This document shows positions 370 through 9,522 of a DNA stretch of 10,010 nucleotides, piece by piece (the stretch's first letter is position 1; every line of letters starts with the position of its first letter). The translations under genes were made by a program, and so were the position numbers. Under the pieces are notes generated by a model that was not told where the DNA came from, searched no databases, and was given only the letters and a program-made list of their open reading frames with translations. Origin of the DNA: Deltaproteobacteria bacterium (GTDB lineage Bacteria; Desulfobacterota; Desulfarculia; Adiutricales; Adiutricaceae); assembly GCA_031278795.1 (NCBI GenBank), contig JAITJT010000035.1, positions 1 through 10,010 on the forward strand, given 5' to 3'.

Positions 370-415
370 AGAAAAAACGTCCATACAGCAAGCGGCCCTT
401 AAGGGCCGCTTGCTG
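370..415 (-). terminator. Terminator after pheA (perfect 15-bp inverted repeat)
   Basis: CAGCAAGCGGCCCTT at 386-400 is followed directly by its exact reverse complement at 401-415, so the stem is GC-rich with a practical 4-nt loop. Read leftward it is followed after six bases by a run of T with one C, which makes it a Rho-independent terminator for the pheA operon whose last gene stops at 477. Read rightward it is followed only by TTT, so termination of the converging aminotransferase transcript would be weaker. A second, weaker inverted pair (449-455 with 472-478) overlaps the pheA stop codon. Confidence 0.75.
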
Positions 416-476: not shown

Positions 477-1628
477 TTAGATGGACGCCAGAGTGTTCTG
501 GACCAGGGGTTTGGCCTTGAGGTTGCGCTCGCTAGGTGGGGCCTCGTATGAGCCTAGGACGTGGCACTGCTCGGTGTGCTCGCTTAGGGCTTCTAGGGCC
601 TTGGTGACGGCCTCGTCCTCGAAGTGGCCTTCCAGCTCCAAAAAGAAGAGGTACTGCCAGGGGGCTTCCAGGTTGGGCCTTGAGTGGAGGCGGGTGAGGT
701 TGACCCCGGAGTCGGCTAGGGGCTGAAGGCACTTGTAGAGGCTTCCACTGTTGTGGGTGGCCGCGAACCAGGCCAGGGTGCGGTCGTTTCCGGTGGGCTG
801 GCTGTCGTCGTGGCTCATGATGAGGAAGCAGGTCTGGTTGTGCTGGAGGTCCTGGATGTCACCGGACATGACGGTTAGGTTGTAGAAGGTGGCCAGGGTG
901 GGGTGCCCGATCACCGCGCAGTTGTCGTCGTTTTGGGCCATGGCCACACCCGCGGCCGTGGAGACCGTGGGCCGGAGTTCCACCCCGGGGAGGTTTAAGG
1001 CCAGCCAGTTGCGGCACTGGGCCAGGGCCTGGGGATGCGAGCTGATGGCCTTTATTTGGGAGAGGTCCCCGTGGGTGCTCATGAGCGAGAGGTTGACCTT
1101 GAGGTTGAGCATGGCCTGGGCCCTTAGGGTGGTGTTGGTCATGAGATCCAGGGTCTGGCCCACAATGCCCTCTGTGGTGTTCTCAAAGGGAACCAGGGCG
1201 AAGTCCGCCTCACCGTTACCAGCTAGCTCAAAGACCTGGGGAAGGTCGTCAGCTGGCATGAAGAAGGCCAGTTTCCCGAACTGCTGCAGGGCCGCGGCGT
1301 GGCTGAATGTCCCAGCTGGCCCCAGGAAGGTGACCTTGGTGGGGGCCTGGGCGGCTCTACAGGCCTTGATAATCTCATTAAATACAGACGATGCCGCCTC
1401 AATGCTCAGACCGTCTCCAGGCTTAATGGCGGTGGCCAGATGGGTCATAATCTGCTTTTCGCGGATTAGGTCCATGATGGGAAGCTGGTTCTGCTTCTTT
1501 AGCTTTCCCAGCTCAATTGCCGCCCTGGCCCGTTTCTGGAGAAGCTCCAGGATATTTATGTCCAACTCGTCGATTTCCTTCCTCAAGGGGGCCAGGACCT
1601 CTTGGGATTCCTTACTTATCTTAATCAT
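477..1628 (-). CDS. pheA: Bifunctional chorismate mutase / prephenate dehydratase (P-protein)
   Basis: This cytosolic enzyme converts chorismate to prephenate and then to phenylpyruvate, the committed steps to phenylalanine. Translated from the ATG at 1628 it has 383 residues, normal for the family. Residues 10-92 are an AroQ-type chorismate mutase with the Arg (LRKEID), GKLK and D-x-x-R-E (53-57) active-site elements. Residues 98-275 are the dehydratase, starting VTFLGPAGTFSH, with Glu149-Asn150 (PFENT), Ser197 (SSHPQ), Gln204 and Thr266, matching the catalytic set of the E. coli enzyme. Residues 283-365 are an ACT domain. Two oddities are visible: the TRF motif reads T-C-F (266-268), and the Phe-binding GALV and ESRP motifs read GSLY and HSRP. 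A start nine codons upstream (1655) is open but overlaps the previous gene, whereas 1628 has a GAGGTGA Shine-Dalgarno. It is the second gene after DAHP synthase, four bases downstream of its stop. Confidence 0.95.
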   Translation of the reverse strand: MIKISKESQEVLAPLRKEIDELDINILELLQKRARAAIELGKLKKQNQLPIMDLIREKQIMTHLATAIKPGDGLSIEAASSVFNEIIKACRAAQAPTKVTFLGPAGTFSHAAALQQFGKLAFFMPADDLPQVFELAGNGEADFALVPFENTTEGIVGQTLDLMTNTTLRAQAMLNLKVNLSLMSTHGDLSQIKAISSHPQALAQCRNWLALNLPGVELRPTVSTAAGVAMAQNDDNCAVIGHPTLATFYNLTVMSGDIQDLQHNQTCFLIMSHDDSQPTGNDRTLAWFAATHNSGSLYKCLQPLADSGVNLTRLHSRPNLEAPWQYLFFLELEGHFEDEAVTKALEALSEHTEQCHVLGSYEAPPSERNLKAKPLVQNTLASI

Positions 1629-1632
1629 GATT

Positions 1633-1639
1633 TCACCTC
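1633..1639 (-). promoter_or_regulatory. pheA Shine-Dalgarno overlapping the DAHP synthase stop
   Basis: Read leftward, GAGGTGA spans 1639-1633 and its last three bases are the TGA stop of the DAHP synthase gene; the pheA ATG follows after four bases. Ribosomes ending on the first gene would uncover or reload at this site, so the two proteins are probably made in a coupled way. This site decides the pheA start at 1628 over the longer in-frame option. Confidence 0.75.
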
Positions 1640-2538
1640 GCCTCCTTTTTCTCACCCGGCTCTATGGTGGAAATCTTCCTCCCAAAGTAGGGGGCAATCT
1701 CCGAGAGGCTTAGCATTAGCTCCCTGAAGGTCTCGGGCCTCAAGGACTCCTCTCCGTCGCAAAGGGCCAGCTCCGGCGCGCAGTGCACCTCTATCATGAG
1801 CCCATCCGCGCCCACCGCCAGGGCGGCCTTGGCCAAGGGGCCCACGTAGTGGGCCTTGCCGCTGGCGTGGCTGGGATCCACTATGACAGGGAGATGCGAC
1901 CTCTCCTTGATGGCCAGAACCGCTGAGATATCCAAGGTATTCCTGGTGGAGGGCTCGAAGGTTCTGATGCCCCTTTCGCAGAGGATGACCTTGTCGTTGC
2001 CACCGGCTAGCAGATACTCGGCCGAGCAGAGTATCTCGTCCACGGTGTTCATGAGGCCGCGTTTCAGTAAAACCGGCTTCCTACTCTTGGAGAGGCGTTT
2101 AAGTAGGGAGAAGTTCTGGGAGTTCCTGGCCCCCACCTGGAGGATGTCCGCGTAGGACTCCACCAGGTCGATGTCCGTGGAGTCCATGACCTCGGTTACT
2201 ATGGAGAGCCCGGTTAGCTCTCTGGCTTTGGAGAGCATCTTCAGGCCCTCCTCGGCTAGGCCCTGGAAGCTGTAAGGGGAGCTCCTGGGCTTGAAGGCCC
2301 CTCCCCTGAGGATGTGGGCACCGGAGAGCTTCACGTCCCAGGCGGTTCCCAGCATCTGGGGGTCGTGCTCCACCGAGCAGGGGCCGGCCATGACAATGAA
2401 TTCCGGGCCTCCCACCACGAGGTTTCCCACGGGCACCAAGGTGTCCTCCGGATGCGTTATGCGGCTGGTGAGTTTGTAGGGCGGTAGTTTCTTGGGGGCC
2501 TGGGGCTCCGTCTTTGGTTGTTCTTGAGGACTGGACAT
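1633..2538 (-). CDS. aroF: 3-deoxy-7-phosphoheptulonate (DAHP) synthase, short type I-beta
   Basis: It condenses phosphoenolpyruvate and erythrose 4-phosphate to DAHP, the entry step of the shikimate pathway. The 301-residue protein has the type I-beta/KDO8P-synthase-like barrel: AGPCSVE (51-57), [16 protein letters not shown] (78-93), [10 protein letters not shown] (134-143), [24 protein letters not shown] (220-228) and IEVHCAPE. The four metal ligands Cys54, His224, Glu250 and Asp261 keep the spacing of the Thermotoga maritima enzyme (170, 26 and 11 residues). Before the barrel there are only about 20 residues of Pro/Lys/Gln-rich sequence and a short PYKLTSR linker, so the ferredoxin-like regulatory domain is missing. 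The ATG at 2538 is chosen because GGAG lies six bases ahead; a TTG at 2550 would put the start before that site. The gene symbol is approximate (aroF/aroG naming varies). Confidence 0.93.
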
Positions 2539-2676: not shown

Positions 2677-2721
2677 CTAAAAAACAAAAAGGGCCGCAGG
2701 CGGTTTCGCCTGCGGCCCTTT
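2677..2721 (-). terminator. Attenuator terminator upstream of the aroF-pheA operon
   Basis: Read leftward, AAAGGGCCGCAGGCG (2721-2707) pairs perfectly with CGCCTGCGGCCCTTT (2702-2688) around an AAAC loop, and is followed by TTTTTGTTTTTT. This is the strongest Rho-independent terminator in the window. It lies downstream of a promoter and a Phe/Tyr-rich leader ORF and about 140 bases before the DAHP synthase start, so it fits an attenuator. The alternative is that it simply ends the transcript of the OmpA-like gene, whose stop is 515 bases away. Confidence 0.85.
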
Positions 2722-2764
2722 AGTCACGAATGCGTGCATACTAAGACGGCAATCAGGCAAAACC
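2702..2764 (-). promoter_or_regulatory. Candidate antiterminator pairing of the leader RNA
   Basis: GGTTTTGCCTG (2764-2754, read leftward) can pair with CAGGCGAAACC (2712-2702), giving 11 continuous base pairs with a single G-U. The second strand includes half of the terminator 5' arm, its loop and the first base of the 3' arm, so the two structures exclude each other. The first strand covers the last two sense codons and the stop of the leader ORF. A ribosome that finishes the leader peptide would hide it and allow termination; one stalled on the Phe/Tyr codons 15-30 bases earlier would leave it free. Pairing was found by eye, without energy calculation. Confidence 0.5.
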
Positions 2765-2875
2765 CTCCCCCAAGCTGTAAAAATAAAAAAACCCGCCAAA
2801 GGCAAAGCTTTGCCAGGAGGGTGATTTTAAGCTTGTGAGGAATTGCTTCCCTATGTCTGAGTTAGTGCTACGCAT
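2753..2875 (-). CDS. Phe/Tyr-rich leader peptide of the aroF-pheA attenuator
   Basis: This is a 40-codon ORF read leftward from an ATG at 2875 to TGA at 2755-2753. It contains seven Phe, two Tyr and one Trp; codons 24-33 read FAFGGFFYFY. Position, composition and the way its stop overlaps the antiterminator strand match leader peptides such as PheL, in which scarcity of the charged tRNA stalls the ribosome and prevents termination. It is longer than PheL (15 residues). The ribosome-binding site is weak (GGA six bases before the ATG). A caution: the Phe/Tyr cluster is encoded by a T-rich run that could instead be the U tract of a small terminator formed by GGCAAAG/CTTTGCC (2814-2801), so chance is not excluded. 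Confidence 0.5.
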   Translation of the reverse strand: MRSTNSDIGKQFLTSLKSPSWQSFAFGGFFYFYSLGEGFA

Positions 2876-2947
2876 TATGTGTCCAGTTGTGTTCCAGATT
2901 CATGTATATCTTGGAACTATGCTAGTTGAAGCCAAGCATGTCCGGGT

Positions 2948-2977
2948 ATGTTAACAAAGATTCAAGAGACCTGTCAA
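2948..2977 (-). promoter_or_regulatory. Sigma-70 promoter of the attenuated aroF-pheA operon
   Basis: Read leftward: a perfect TTGACA -35 (2977-2972), an 18-base spacer and a TAACAT -10 (2953-2948, four of six matches). Directly upstream are A and T tracts (2978-3005) of the kind that act as UP elements. Transcription would start near 2941, giving a leader of about 400 bases that contains the leader ORF and the terminator before the DAHP synthase start. Confidence 0.5.
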
Positions 2978-3235: not shown

Positions 3236-4231
3236 CTAGTTGGTGGGTCTCCCCCTCGCGGTCAGGTAGTTGGAGTCCGTGAGGTTCACCACCTCCACCC
3301 GGCGGTTACGGCCGTTTTCCGGGGAAAGGTTGGGTAGCGGCCTGGATTCCCCGAAGGCCTCCGTGGGAAGTAGCGAGGGAGAGATGTTGAAGTTGTCCAT
3401 GAGGAAGGACTGGACACGGTTGGCCCTCCTTTGGGAGAGGTCGATGTTGTACTCGTAGGTACCGTAGGAGTCCGTGTGCCCCTCCAGCCTGAAGGTCTTC
3501 CCCCTTAGTGAGGGGGAGGTGAGGGCCCGTCCCAGGGTCTGACAGGTTTGGTAGGCCCTGGAGGTGAGGGTGTCCCGGTCGAAGTCGAATTGAATGTTTA
3601 GGGCTAGCCTGGGCGAGTTGTCCAGATCTGGCTCATTTAGATATTTCTCCGGCGGAGGGCTTCCGCCCCTGGCCAAGGTCAGAGCGGCCCTCTCCTCCGG
3701 GGTATAGGCCGAGCGCCTGGCGCCCGGCTGGGGCGACAGGGCTCTTATCATGTCGTCTAGGGATGGATCGTCAACACCGGTCAGATCGGTTAGGCGCCTA
3801 TCGTTAATGTATTGGAAAGGATAGTGTATGAAAGTCCACTTGGGAAGCGGAAACTCGGAAAATGGCGGCTCCTTGCTCTCAAAGGCCCCTGAGCCGTCGT
3901 AGTCCACCAGCTGGTAGTCCCAGGGGTCTTCCAGGTCGTGATCGGCCACGTAACAAAAGACTCGGCCGTTGTGGCTGAGTCTTAGGGCCCTTCCCTCCTC
4001 ATTGGGGAGGATGAACTCCTCCCTTCTCGTCTCCTCGCCTTCCACGGCTATGTCGAAGTCAATCATCTCATCTGAGACCCTTAAGGAGCCGTAGAGCGCC
4101 GGTGTTAGCCAACCGTAGGGGTAATACTCGTGGTGGTTGGTCATGGCCGAGAGCTCATGAACTCTAAGATAGAGCCCCAGGGCCAGGGCGAGGGTGAGGC
4201 ATAAGGCTATGGCTGGGGTTCTTTTAGGCAC
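3236..4231 (-). CDS. OmpA-family peptidoglycan-binding envelope protein
   Basis: This 331-residue protein begins with a basic n-region (MPKRT) and a hydrophobic stretch (residues 7-21), either a Sec signal peptide (possible cleavage after ELSA, residue 29) or an uncleaved membrane anchor. No lipobox is seen. Residues 30-205 match nothing I recognise; they are acidic and rich in Tyr and Pro. Residues 208-317 are an OmpA/Pal/MotB-type domain: a strand with FDFDRDTL, then EGHTDSYGTYEYN, LSQRRANRV and NGRNRRVEVV. Asp254 and Arg269 correspond in spacing to the pair that holds diaminopimelate in Acinetobacter OmpA. It should therefore tether the cell wall from the periplasm. The start is GTG at 4231, with AAGGA about ten bases upstream; no later Met would keep the signal. 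It appears monocistronic. Confidence 0.85.
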   Translation of the reverse strand: MPKRTPAIALCLTLALALGLYLRVHELSAMTNHHEYYPYGWLTPALYGSLRVSDEMIDFDIAVEGEETRREEFILPNEEGRALRLSHNGRVFCYVADHDLEDPWDYQLVDYDGSGAFESKEPPFSEFPLPKWTFIHYPFQYINDRRLTDLTGVDDPSLDDMIRALSPQPGARRSAYTPEERAALTLARGGSPPPEKYLNEPDLDNSPRLALNIQFDFDRDTLTSRAYQTCQTLGRALTSPSLRGKTFRLEGHTDSYGTYEYNIDLSQRRANRVQSFLMDNFNISPSLLPTEAFGESRPLPNLSPENGRNRRVEVVNLTDSNYLTARGRPTN

Positions 4232-4868: not shown

Positions 4869-4939
4869 TTTGTTTATTAGTATCGGACTATGGGCTAGCC
4901 TCATGGGAGCTCTCTTTAACTAGAATTTAGGTGCTTTAT

Positions 4940-6769
4940 TTGAAGTTTTCTCCAGAATTCATCCTAGAGGTGCGAGGCCGCACCGACATCCTTTCGGTGG
5001 TTAGCCAGTACGTGGATCTCAAGCGTAGCGGCCACAACAGCTACAAGGGGCTCTGCCCCTTCCACAACGAGAAGACGCCCTCCTTCCACATCAACTGCCG
5101 TGACCAGTTCTTCTACTGCTTTGGCTGCAACGAGGGAGGTGACGTCATCAGGTTCATGGAGCTCATCACGGGCATGAGCTTTCCGGAGGTGATGGAGGAG
5201 CTGGCCAAGAAGGCGGGCATGCAGCTTCCCCAGTGGCACCCGGCCCAAGCGGCCGAGTCCAAGGAGCTCCAGAGGAAGAAGGATCTCTTGCACCAGGTGA
5301 TGGACAGGGCCACCGAGTATTTCGCGGATAGGCTCTGGAGCAACGAGGGAACCCACGTGAGGAACTACCTCAGGAAGCGGGGCGTGGACGACGAGGTCTC
5401 CCGGGCCTTCAACCTAGGTTACAGCCTCAACCAGTGGGACGCCCTCAAAAAAACCTTTCTCAAAGAGGGTTTTGACGAGAGGCTTTTACTGGACGCTGGG
5501 CTCATTAAAAGTAGAGAGCAGGAGCCTGGCACTTACGACGTCTTCCGGGGAAGGCTAATGGTTCCGGTCGCCGCCACCGATGGTAGAACAGTGGCTTTCG
5601 GGGGAAGGCTGGTGGACCAGGCGCCACCGGAGGTTCCCAAGTACGTGAACTCCCCCTTGACTCCCATCTATAAGAAGGGGGAACTACTCTTTGGATTGCC
5701 CCAGGCCAATCCTTATATGAAGGCCTTGGGATGCGCCTATGTGGTGGAGGGCTATTTCGACCTCATAGCGCTTTTCGCCAGAGGGCTAAAGAACGTGGTG
5801 TGCTCCATGGGTACGGCCTTCACCCAGCCCCAGGCCAATCTTCTTAGAAGCCGCGTTAAAGAGCTCTTCTTGCTCTTTGACGGCGACTCAGCCGGCCGCA
5901 AGGCCGCGAAACAAGCCCTTCCCATGCTCTTAAACGCGGAGCTGGACGGTAGGGTGGTATTACTCCCCCACGAGCACGACCCGGATAGTTTCGTGAGGGA
6001 ACAGGGCTTGGATGCCCTCTTTATGCTGGTGGAAAAGTCCATGAACGTCTTTGACTACACCGTGGACTATCTGCTTTCCACCTATCCGGACACCTTGATA
6101 GGCCAGGCCCAGGCCGTGAGGGAGATAAAAGAGCTACTCTCCCAGGTGCCCGACAGTCTCAAGGGCCAGCTACTTAGGCATAAGTTCGCACAGAGGCTGG
6201 GCTTGGACGAGGGGCTCTTCCACCTGGCGCGTCCCAAGGTGGAGGCACCAGAACCCATAGCTCCCTCGCAGGATAAGGCGGAGCCGGGCCCCGGCCTAGA
6301 CGACTCGGCCGCCAACCTCCTCAAGTACGCCATCATCTATCCGGAGACCCAGGGCCTACTCAAGGGCTTGGAGATCTACTGGCCGGAGGATCCTACACTT
6401 CCTCTCTACCAGGAGATGCTTAAGCACATCGAGGAAAACGGAGAGGTCGTCCCCTCCAGGCTCATGCCAAGAGACGCTCAACTCATGAACCTGGTCTCCC
6501 AGGCGGCCACCACGCCCAGGTGGACGGATATCCAGAACGCTCTCTTAGGCTTTCAGGAATACGTCTGGAGACTCAAGAGGAAGGGCGTGGACGCGGCCTT
6601 CTCCAGGACCATAAAGTGCATCCTGGCGGCTGAGACCCAGGGTGACGCGGGCCGCCTAGACGAGCTCAAGGCCCAGGCCAGGGCCTTAAGCGATGAGAAG
6701 AAGCTTTTGCAGTCCCAGGACGCCTTGCACCAGGGCCGCTCCGACAAAGACGGGATGGGCGCGGGCTAA
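4940..6769 (+). CDS. dnaG: DNA primase DnaG
   Basis: DnaG synthesises the RNA primers for the lagging strand at the replication fork, partnering the DnaB helicase. Using the TTG start at 4940 it has 609 residues, normal for the family. The N-terminal zinc-binding domain has CPFHNEKTPSF and YCFGC (ligands Cys39, His42, Cys60, Cys63). The RNA polymerase core has the FRGRLMVPV motif (202-210), and the Toprim fold has EGYFD (catalytic Glu270) and FDGDSAGR (Asp314, Asp316), followed by HDPDSF. The C-terminal 180 residues, the helicase-binding part, are divergent. The TTG is preferred because AGGTG lies six bases ahead and the protein then begins MKFSPEFI like other primases; a GTG at 4931, which is part of that Shine-Dalgarno, is the alternative (612 residues) and has no site of its own. 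It precedes rpoD, the usual partner. Confidence 0.96.
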   Translation: MKFSPEFILEVRGRTDILSVVSQYVDLKRSGHNSYKGLCPFHNEKTPSFHINCRDQFFYCFGCNEGGDVIRFMELITGMSFPEVMEELAKKAGMQLPQWHPAQAAESKELQRKKDLLHQVMDRATEYFADRLWSNEGTHVRNYLRKRGVDDEVSRAFNLGYSLNQWDALKKTFLKEGFDERLLLDAGLIKSREQEPGTYDVFRGRLMVPVAATDGRTVAFGGRLVDQAPPEVPKYVNSPLTPIYKKGELLFGLPQANPYMKALGCAYVVEGYFDLIALFARGLKNVVCSMGTAFTQPQANLLRSRVKELFLLFDGDSAGRKAAKQALPMLLNAELDGRVVLLPHEHDPDSFVREQGLDALFMLVEKSMNVFDYTVDYLLSTYPDTLIGQAQAVREIKELLSQVPDSLKGQLLRHKFAQRLGLDEGLFHLARPKVEAPEPIAPSQDKAEPGPGLDDSAANLLKYAIIYPETQGLLKGLEIYWPEDPTLPLYQEMLKHIEENGEVVPSRLMPRDAQLMNLVSQAATTPRWTDIQNALLGFQEYVWRLKRKGVDAAFSRTIKCILAAETQGDAGRLDELKAQARALSDEKKLLQSQDALHQGRSDKDGMGAG

Positions 6770-7503: not shown

Positions 7504-7747
7504 ATCCGCAAACCAGAGGCTTAAGCCTTCCAGCGGATGCCAGGGGGATGTTTTTCCCGCCGGAGTGCGGCTTATCCCCTAGGAGGCCAGTTGTGGCCTA
7601 TCTGACACGAGGCACCCAAGGGCTTTTAGCCCATGGGCTATTACACAAGTATTCAGGTGTTCGATCCAGGATATATGGATCCTTCCCAGAAAGATTTTTT
7701 TGTGGGAAGTGTTATACGCATCTTGTTCTGCCGCGGACTTTCCGCGG
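7504..7747 (+). other. Hairpin-dense leader region upstream of rpoD
   Basis: Consecutive pairings fill this stretch: ATCCGC/GCGGAT (7504-7538) enclosing AGGCTTAAGCCT; GGGGAT/ATCCCC (7544-7579) enclosing CCGC/GCGG; AGGCC/GGCCT (7584-7599); GGGCT/AGCCC (7620-7632), which competes with the palindrome AGCCCATGGGCT (7628-7639); CTTCCCA/TGGGAAG (7682-7709); and CCGCGG/CCGCGG (7731-7747) just before the rpoD Shine-Dalgarno. Such density suggests a folded rpoD 5' leader. I see no known riboswitch core, tRNA, tmRNA, SRP RNA or RNase P RNA signature. Confidence 0.45.
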
Positions 7748-7766
7748 CCCCAAAGGGGAGGGTTAA
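7593..7766 (+). CDS. Possible 57-codon small ORF coupled to rpoD
   Basis: A GTG at 7593 has a full AGGAGG six bases upstream and opens a 57-codon frame whose TAA (7764-7766) lies one base before the chosen rpoD GTG, the arrangement of translational coupling. The product would be basic, with an FFCGKC Cys pair near the middle and an RGPKGEG tail; I recognise no family. Against it: codon use (CGA, TTA, ACA) is unlike the neighbouring genes, and the AGGAGG is part of the AGGCC/GGCCT hairpin. It may be a regulatory upstream ORF rather than a functional protein, or chance. Confidence 0.25.
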
Positions 7767-7767
7767 G

Positions 7768-9522
<1,755 letters not shown>

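Follow-up and report, generated by a model that had tools for sequence, protein, structure and literature searches.

The window, i.e., the whole stretch of 10,010 nucleotides that was analysed, carries a two-gene operon on its minus strand. The first gene, aroF (1633..2538, ATG at 2538), encodes a DAHP synthase recognised by its core domain (Pfam PF00793), and the second, pheA (477..1628, ATG at 1628), a chorismate mutase-prephenate dehydratase with an ACT-like end (PF01817 and PF00800); the DAHP synthase-pheA operon that an earlier note had read from the DNA letters is thus identified by Pfam and NCBIfam profiles. The PheA match to the ACT model PF01842 lies slightly under the cut-off (25.9 bits, with a cut-off of 27). 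Counted from the ATG at 2538, AroF has 301 amino acids and is over the cut-off of both PRK08673 and TIGR01361 (NCBIfam). It covers positions 65-336 only of the 338 in the PRK08673 model, the N-terminal part being absent, and the DAHP synthase of a locus with a Geobacter-type leader (L016) is longer, at 339 amino acids. The N-terminal domain of this model carries feedback inhibition, so in the window control may rest more on RNA. A terminator-like hairpin read by eye 3' of pheA (386..415, minus strand) implies that the operon probably consists of aroF and pheA only. Its neighbours are genes for an OmpA-domain protein (3236-4231), a DNA primase (4931-6769) and a sigma-70 factor (7633-9522). The closest AroF matches are proteins from Deltaproteobacteria bacterium MAGs, with at most 92% identity over the aligned part, and Candidatus Adiutrix proteins were also among the matches (74 and 84% identity). 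Judged by these matches, the DNA is that of an uncultured Candidatus Adiutrix-like bacterium, which we take to belong to a termite-gut lineage.

Upstream of aroF, on the same strand, the promoter, leader, pairings and terminator that the earlier note had placed there agree base by base with our own reading. The predicted sigma-70-type promoter (2948..2977) has a -35 hexamer TTGACA (2977-2972), an 18 bp spacer and a -10 hexamer TAACAT (2953-2948), matching 10 of 12 consensus positions. A leader peptide ORF of 40 codons and a TGA (2753..2875), found by ORF reading and by its conservation in relatives, encodes MRSTNSDIGKQFLTSLKSPSWQSFAFGGFFYFYSLGEGFA and has a weak Shine-Dalgarno sequence by eye (GGA). 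Codons 24-33 (2777..2806) read FAFGGFFYFY, and this aromatic run is kept in frame in relatives. The 5' strand of an antiterminator, segment 2 (2754..2764, GGTTTTGCCTG), lies over the leader stop codon and forms a covarying helix of 11 bp, including one U-G, with segment 3 (2702..2712, CAGGCGAAACC). Segment 3 is common to the antiterminator and to a predicted intrinsic terminator (2679..2721), a 15-bp hairpin of 2721-2707 with 2702-2688 around a loop of 4, with a U-rich tract at 2690-2679 and a hairpin energy of -29.9 kcal/mol. Since the 2:3 and 3:4 pairings both use segment 3, they are mutually exclusive. Computational folding of 2677-2900 gave -92.5, against -60.4 (sd 4.5) in shuffles, and the computed fold also contains a 1:2 hairpin. 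An equally F/Y-rich ORF arose in 1 of 100 shuffles of the window's own upstream DNA; taken alone, therefore, the window's leader is only modestly unlikely.

Two side observations concern this layout. A small hairpin lies between segments 2 and 3 in several of them (L082 and L091; in the window at about 2740-2722), and would shorten the antiterminator loop. The window's leader ATG is 72 nt past the -10 hexamer. An in-frame leader ATG falls exactly 8 nt past it in L093, L094, L096, L098, L099 and L100, so the leader mRNA may be leaderless there.

The comparison was made within the window's own order, using 12 named records (L001-L012) and, from the order to which G010 belongs, 41 genomes. Ten of the 41 genomes were without a close AroF; of the 31 that remained, L108 and G013 offered no upstream DNA and L110, which has diverged, was counted in the next set, so that the order set held 28 regions plus the window, i.e., 29. 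Our strict criterion, set after the sequences had been inspected, demanded a leader starting with ATG, GTG or TTG, 8-95 codons long, with at least 7 F/Y/W in 12 codons and lying inside 800 bases, as well as a terminator hairpin of at least 7 bp and -11 kcal/mol, followed by UUUU, at most 130 nt from the stop. The Phe/Tyr codons are indeed kept upstream of aroF in relatives: 27 of the 29 regions, the window included, were positive by the strict criterion, against 0 of 580 dinucleotide shuffles, and a looser search (an ORF with at least 6 F/Y in 12 codons) was positive in all 29. The two strict misses, L090 with its leader past the 800-base limit and L104 with 6 F/Y, were both positive in the looser search, and a terminator was present in 29/29. 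With three sets pooled, 0 of 3540 shuffles were positive by the strict criterion; among real 800-base windows taken elsewhere in L013-L080, 3 of 1726 were. Judged by F/Y score only, L097, L104 and L090 were equalled by 16, 4 and 19 of 100 shuffles, respectively. Upstream of the leader, 25 of the 27 positive regions have an exact TTGACA with a -10-like hexamer and the other two have TTGACT, in a scan that took the best match and had no shuffle control.

The earlier note had worried that the Phe/Tyr cluster might merely reflect a T-rich run, and this is answered by the reading frame and by third positions. In the 12-codon windows of the order, F/Y/W codons number 218 in frame and 86 and 81 in the other frames, and in the other aroF leaders 690 in frame and 200 and 195 out of frame; because the frame itself was picked by score, these counts are best judged against the shuffles. 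The codons in the order are TTT 119, TTC 27, TAT 34, TAC 27 and TGG 11, and the use of TTC and TAC beside TTT and TAT points to synonymous T/C change. An artefact of the T run or of the first terminator is rejected on the frame bias, the synonymous changes and the relatives that have no repeat before the T run. Phe plus Tyr was also the top of all 190 amino acid pairs by number of positive regions in three sets (28/29, 46/80 and 42/68). The corresponding test of all triples was not decisive (27, 46 and 40 for FYW; 28, 45 and 43 for the best other triples), because F+Y plus nearly any third amino acid scores about equal to FYW, and the pair test and a Trp count in F+Y-chosen windows were used in its place. 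A Trp codon stands ahead of the aromatic run in many order leaders (codon 21 in the window, and L093, L094, L101 and L107); across the 25 codons before the run TGG shows a mild excess, with 20 in frame and 22 in the other two frames together.

The antiterminator pairing was assessed on ungapped sequence, in a register chosen by inspection, because the MAFFT alignment A2 splits segment 3 by a loop gap (in A2, the stretch of L087 was extended by hand to the main terminator, the strict scan having stopped at a smaller hairpin). In this fixed register a 9-bp 2:3 helix has 208 of 243 cells paired in 27 sequences, against 76-122 when the register was slid by 1-3 and a mean of 188 (maximum 200) when partners were swapped, none of 5000 swaps reaching 208. 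Both sides change at five of the nine pairs, e.g., from T-A to G-C and to A-T. Pairing is weak in L098 (3/9, where the strands pair one position over), L082 (4/9), L084 (6/9) and L097 (6/9). When own 2:3 duplex energies were compared with swapped ones, 0 of 5000 permutations reached the own value in any of the four groups tried: the order (n = 26), other aroF loci (n = 79), ADTH synthase loci (n = 40) and one Bacillota order (n = 27). L087 and places whose U tract lies over 100 nt from the stop were left out. In an earlier version of this swap the counts were 1 in 20000 (n = 29) and 0 in 20000 (n = 23). The covariation of the 2:3 stem that the attenuator reading calls for is therefore borne out by cell count, partner swaps and duplex energies alike. 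For the 3:4 stem, own arms gave -25.4 and swapped arms -18.7, with 0 of 5000 reaching the former, a result that is partly circular since the arms were taken from each fold, which favours own pairs.

The geometry is also as the earlier note had described it for the window, with the codons upstream of segment 2 and the stop in or next to it. Across the order, helix 2 starts a median of 13.5 nt past the first base of the last aromatic codon and a median of 9.5 nt before the stop. The distance from codons to helix spreads widely in the other groups, with a greater median, 36 nt, in the Bacillota order. A TCTGCCC segment is, by eye, read in different frames, as VCP in some leaders and as PSAR in Geobacter-type ones, which is expected of a conserved RNA rather than a conserved peptide.

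Given these features, we consider it very probable that the element is a ribosome-mediated transcription attenuator through which the availability of charged tRNA-Phe and tRNA-Tyr controls aroF-pheA expression. Four features that mark this class were found: a short ORF rich in codons for the product amino acids, a terminator before the first gene, a covarying and exclusive antiterminator, and the fitting placement of codons and stop. RNA polymerase would start at about 2941 and a ribosome would translate the leader. With Phe and Tyr plentiful, the ribosome would reach the stop (2755-2753) and cover segment 2, in which case segment 3 would pair with 4 and transcription would end in the U tract. 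With Phe or Tyr short, it would stall at codons 24-33. The front of a ribosome usually reaches 12 nt, and with codon 33 in the A site the front would lie at about 2767, leaving 2764-2754 free; the free segment 2 would then pair with segment 3, the terminator would be blocked and aroF-pheA would be transcribed. That the leader is transcribed and translated, that the ribosome stalls and polymerase reads through, and that Tyr counts beside Phe, we infer from the DNA. The attenuator interpretation put forward in the earlier note is supported by the comparison, through the conserved codons, the exclusive covarying helices and the geometry.

Similar leaders occur upstream of aroF well beyond the order. 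AroF was found at E <= 1e-60 in 183 of 297 phylum genomes, and the 80 places (75 genomes) that we took came from the top of this list, after three of the window's own order. The strict criterion was positive in 46 of these 80 and failed in 34, a proportion that is no estimate for the phylum as the places were picked by AroF similarity. A mixed set of L013-L080 and L110 had 37 positives of 68 and 31 negatives, L021 being too short; L022, L024, L035 and L057 have a Geobacter-type leader whose terminator was not found by the scan, and L064, L071 and L077 among the positives are Bacillota-type. Over all sets, the 177 positives represent 174 distinct leaders. A leader profile search matched 19 of 198 genomes at E <= 0.01; 16 matches lie upstream of aroF, one (L209) upstream of an ADTH synthase gene, and two (L207 and L208) look like chance. 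The profile misses many leaders (it found none in G010), so absence from other operons was not inferred from it. A second GC-rich hairpin and T tract between the first terminator and aroF, seen by eye in L013, L015, L020, L110 and the Geobacter-type L016, L036 and L046, may be read as tandem terminators or as a second element.

Leaders from outside the order have sequences such as NNFYGYWFYYYFALVCPSRED or FYFWYGFYFRPSAR, and Trp joins Phe and Tyr in the run. In leaders whose selection score had counted Trp, Trp falls inside the F+Y-chosen window in 66 of 83 aroF leaders outside the order (66 of 80 without the three of Bacillota type) and in 6 of 27 within it. It is rare elsewhere in these leaders, at 20 of 2532 residues outside the order and 28 of 1254 inside. 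Most aroF leaders found in the phylum outside the order thus have Trp codons in the same run, and there the device in its general form probably senses all three aromatic amino acids at the entry step. In the phylum sample Trp was in the run of 9 of 26 leaders where pheA follows aroF (9/24 in the order, 0/2 outside) and of 30 of 33 where it does not (Fisher p 7e-6, a test on related sequences that left out four with short flanks).

The profile match in G161 (L209) precedes an ADTH synthase gene (TIGR01949, 390 bits, over the cut-off). Next to it is the start of a gene for 3-dehydroquinate synthase II, which scores 158 bits against a cut-off of 392 because the locus ends there; the two enzymes presumably perform the alternative first two steps of the aromatic pathway. 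ADTH synthase was found at E <= 1e-40 in 96 of 297 phylum genomes, from which 30 loci and 40 more places were sampled, with L225, which has insufficient DNA upstream, and L234, whose match contains no start, dropped. The strict criterion was positive upstream of ADTH synthase in 40 of 68 regions, against 1 of 1360 shuffles; L209, the founding case, is the same as L211 and has 6 rather than 7 aromatic residues, and was scored as a miss like the others with 6. Trp occurs inside the F+Y-chosen window of 23 of the 40 leaders and in 15 of 989 residues elsewhere in them, and 2:3 duplexes of own partners reached -22.5 compared with -17.7 for swapped ones (0/5000). Apparently, the arrangement is tied to the entry step of the pathway and not to one gene family. 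The earlier note's view was accordingly too narrow: the arrangement extends beyond the order, includes Trp codons in most aroF leaders there, and precedes ADTH synthase as well.

From the mixed set, L077 (Ruminococcus) led to one Bacillota order with 51 genomes, 40 of which have AroF at E <= 1e-60. In 30 loci from these 40 AroF genomes the strict criterion was positive upstream of aroF in 27, the misses being L292, L309 and L310, against 0 of 600 shuffles. Their runs read like YFFYFSQSFYFSFGYF, with Trp in 0 of 27, and pheA was not found beside aroF in any of the 29 loci with at least 1000 bases downstream. As a general rule, then, that codon content follows operon content fails in this order, which has no adjoining pheA and yet no Trp.

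One tentative account, to which we give somewhat less than even credence, is that an old three-aromatic attenuator stayed in the phylum while the enzyme behind it changed. Leaders of one type, several with an antiterminator like GTCTGCCC/GGGCAGAC, would control DAHP synthase in some cases and the non-homologous ADTH synthase in others, with the RNA tied to the entry step. Within the phylum the choice of codons would depend on the operon, with Phe/Tyr in aroF-pheA operons and Phe/Tyr/Trp where aroF stands without pheA. The Bacillota order departs from this last part.

Which amino acids count is the point at which the attenuator reading faces its strongest competitor. A working attenuator could sense Phe only, the Tyr (and elsewhere Trp) codons being neighbours with little effect; we think this unlikely, though it deserves to be taken seriously. 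In the excerpted text of PMC11802643, Phe limitation matters and Tyr limitation does not at the C. glutamicum aroR leader with its Phe-Tyr-Phe. Phe also outnumbers Tyr in the window's run, and pheA makes the Phe branch. However, the share of Tyr is large, with TAT+TAC at 61 and TTT+TTC at 146 in the order, 256 and 361 in the other aroF leaders, and 163 and 127 before ADTH synthase, and Trp, rare outside the run, sits inside it in the aroF and ADTH synthase leaders counted above.

We regard it as very improbable that aroF is controlled by another RNA route, such as a ligand-binding riboswitch, a T-box or Rho, in which the ORF plays a minor part. The second hairpin and T tract of some relatives would suit such a route, but the conserved parts are the codons, helix 2:3 and the terminator, and the element has no Rfam match at gathering score. 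None of the Rfam 15 families (leader families and T-box included) reached it in the window, nor did any family for the aroF leader element in 13 fetched loci. The best bit score for a known element, RF04312 (trpB), was 24.9 with 59 required, and that motif is described from Firmicutes and Fusobacteria in the excerpted text of PMC11109978, where the two of eight uORF candidates that the excerpt covers are not before aroF. A cobalamin riboswitch at L147:331-497 (minus strand, 96 bits) is unrelated to the leader element. That a plain terminator merely ends an upstream transcript, with a T-rich run reading as Phe/Tyr by chance and no regulation, would accommodate the GC-rich inverted repeat before the window's T run (U7AU5) and the equally aromatic shuffle in 100, but it is hardly credible against the conservation, frame bias, synonymous changes and covariation, with relatives (L091, L094 and L098, by eye) keeping the codons without a repeat before the T run, and would need a coincidence across 174 distinct positive leaders.

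The attenuator that we favour has several known counterparts. In E. coli pheL-pheA a Phe leader peptide and exclusive helices precede the gene for chorismate mutase-prephenate dehydratase; that system reads Phe rather than Phe/Tyr and stands before pheA only, and the window is without an Rfam match. The ilvGMEDA and thrABC leaders read several end products of a common pathway with one leader, but these are branched-chain amino acids or Thr/Ile and not aromatic as here. Attenuation sensing Tyr-tRNA was reportedly suggested for aroF by Camakaris in 1980, and the aroR leader upstream of C. glutamicum aroF is said to have been treated by Neshat et al. in 2014. The E. coli pheL-pheA attenuator is named in the available text of PMC11802643, which together with that of PMC4046766 describes aroR as a leader peptide with Phe-Tyr-Phe before the DAHP synthase gene, acting by ribosome-mediated attenuation that responds to Phe by experiment. 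By this description aroR is set apart by its host (Actinobacteria), by naming three aromatic residues compared with 7-10 in 12 codons here, and by the mention in those excerpts of neither a Trp nor an ADTH synthase counterpart. In Acholeplasma, uORFC-13-1 is alike in description, with Phe codon(s) in a U run, a terminator and aroF downstream (PMC8632094, in part); it differs in lineage and, with 24 representatives, at least one Phe and possibly an extra substructure, is a candidate. Attenuation sensing Tyr-tRNA is also suggested for aroF of E. coli and Shewanella, again a DAHP synthase gene, as a hypothesis or machine prediction, and the excerpts describe no leader of the window's type there (PMC8632094 and PMC2659441). 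A Phe and Tyr leader at the entry enzyme outside enterobacteria, which the earlier note had thought unusual, is less so given aroR and uORFC-13-1.

Leader-peptide attenuation is thus already known, as are Phe/Tyr leaders of aroF, in Corynebacterium and, as suspected, in Acholeplasma, according to the excerpted sources. In the available text of open-licence PMC papers on leaders and attenuation, the leader element is described neither from Desulfobacterota or Ruminococcus-like bacteria nor upstream of ADTH synthase, and the words 'leader peptide', 'aroF' and 'aromatic' do not occur in the main text of PMC545781, which deals with metal-reducing delta-proteobacteria. Compared with Rfam and the portions of those papers at hand, the F/Y/W form, the spread in the phylum and in a Bacillota order, and the use by two non-homologous entry enzymes appear to be new. 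The element is absent from the Rfam 15 copy searched.

In E. coli, control of the first step of aromatic synthesis lies with TyrR, TrpR and allostery. The available text of open-licence PMC papers says little of first-step control in these anaerobes. If the attenuator reading is true, many members of an anaerobe phylum and one Bacillota order would use a leader peptide at the first aromatic step, and two unrelated enzymes would be under one logic. The element would then offer a defined system in which to study how a single leader integrates several amino acids, and whether control shifts between protein and RNA.
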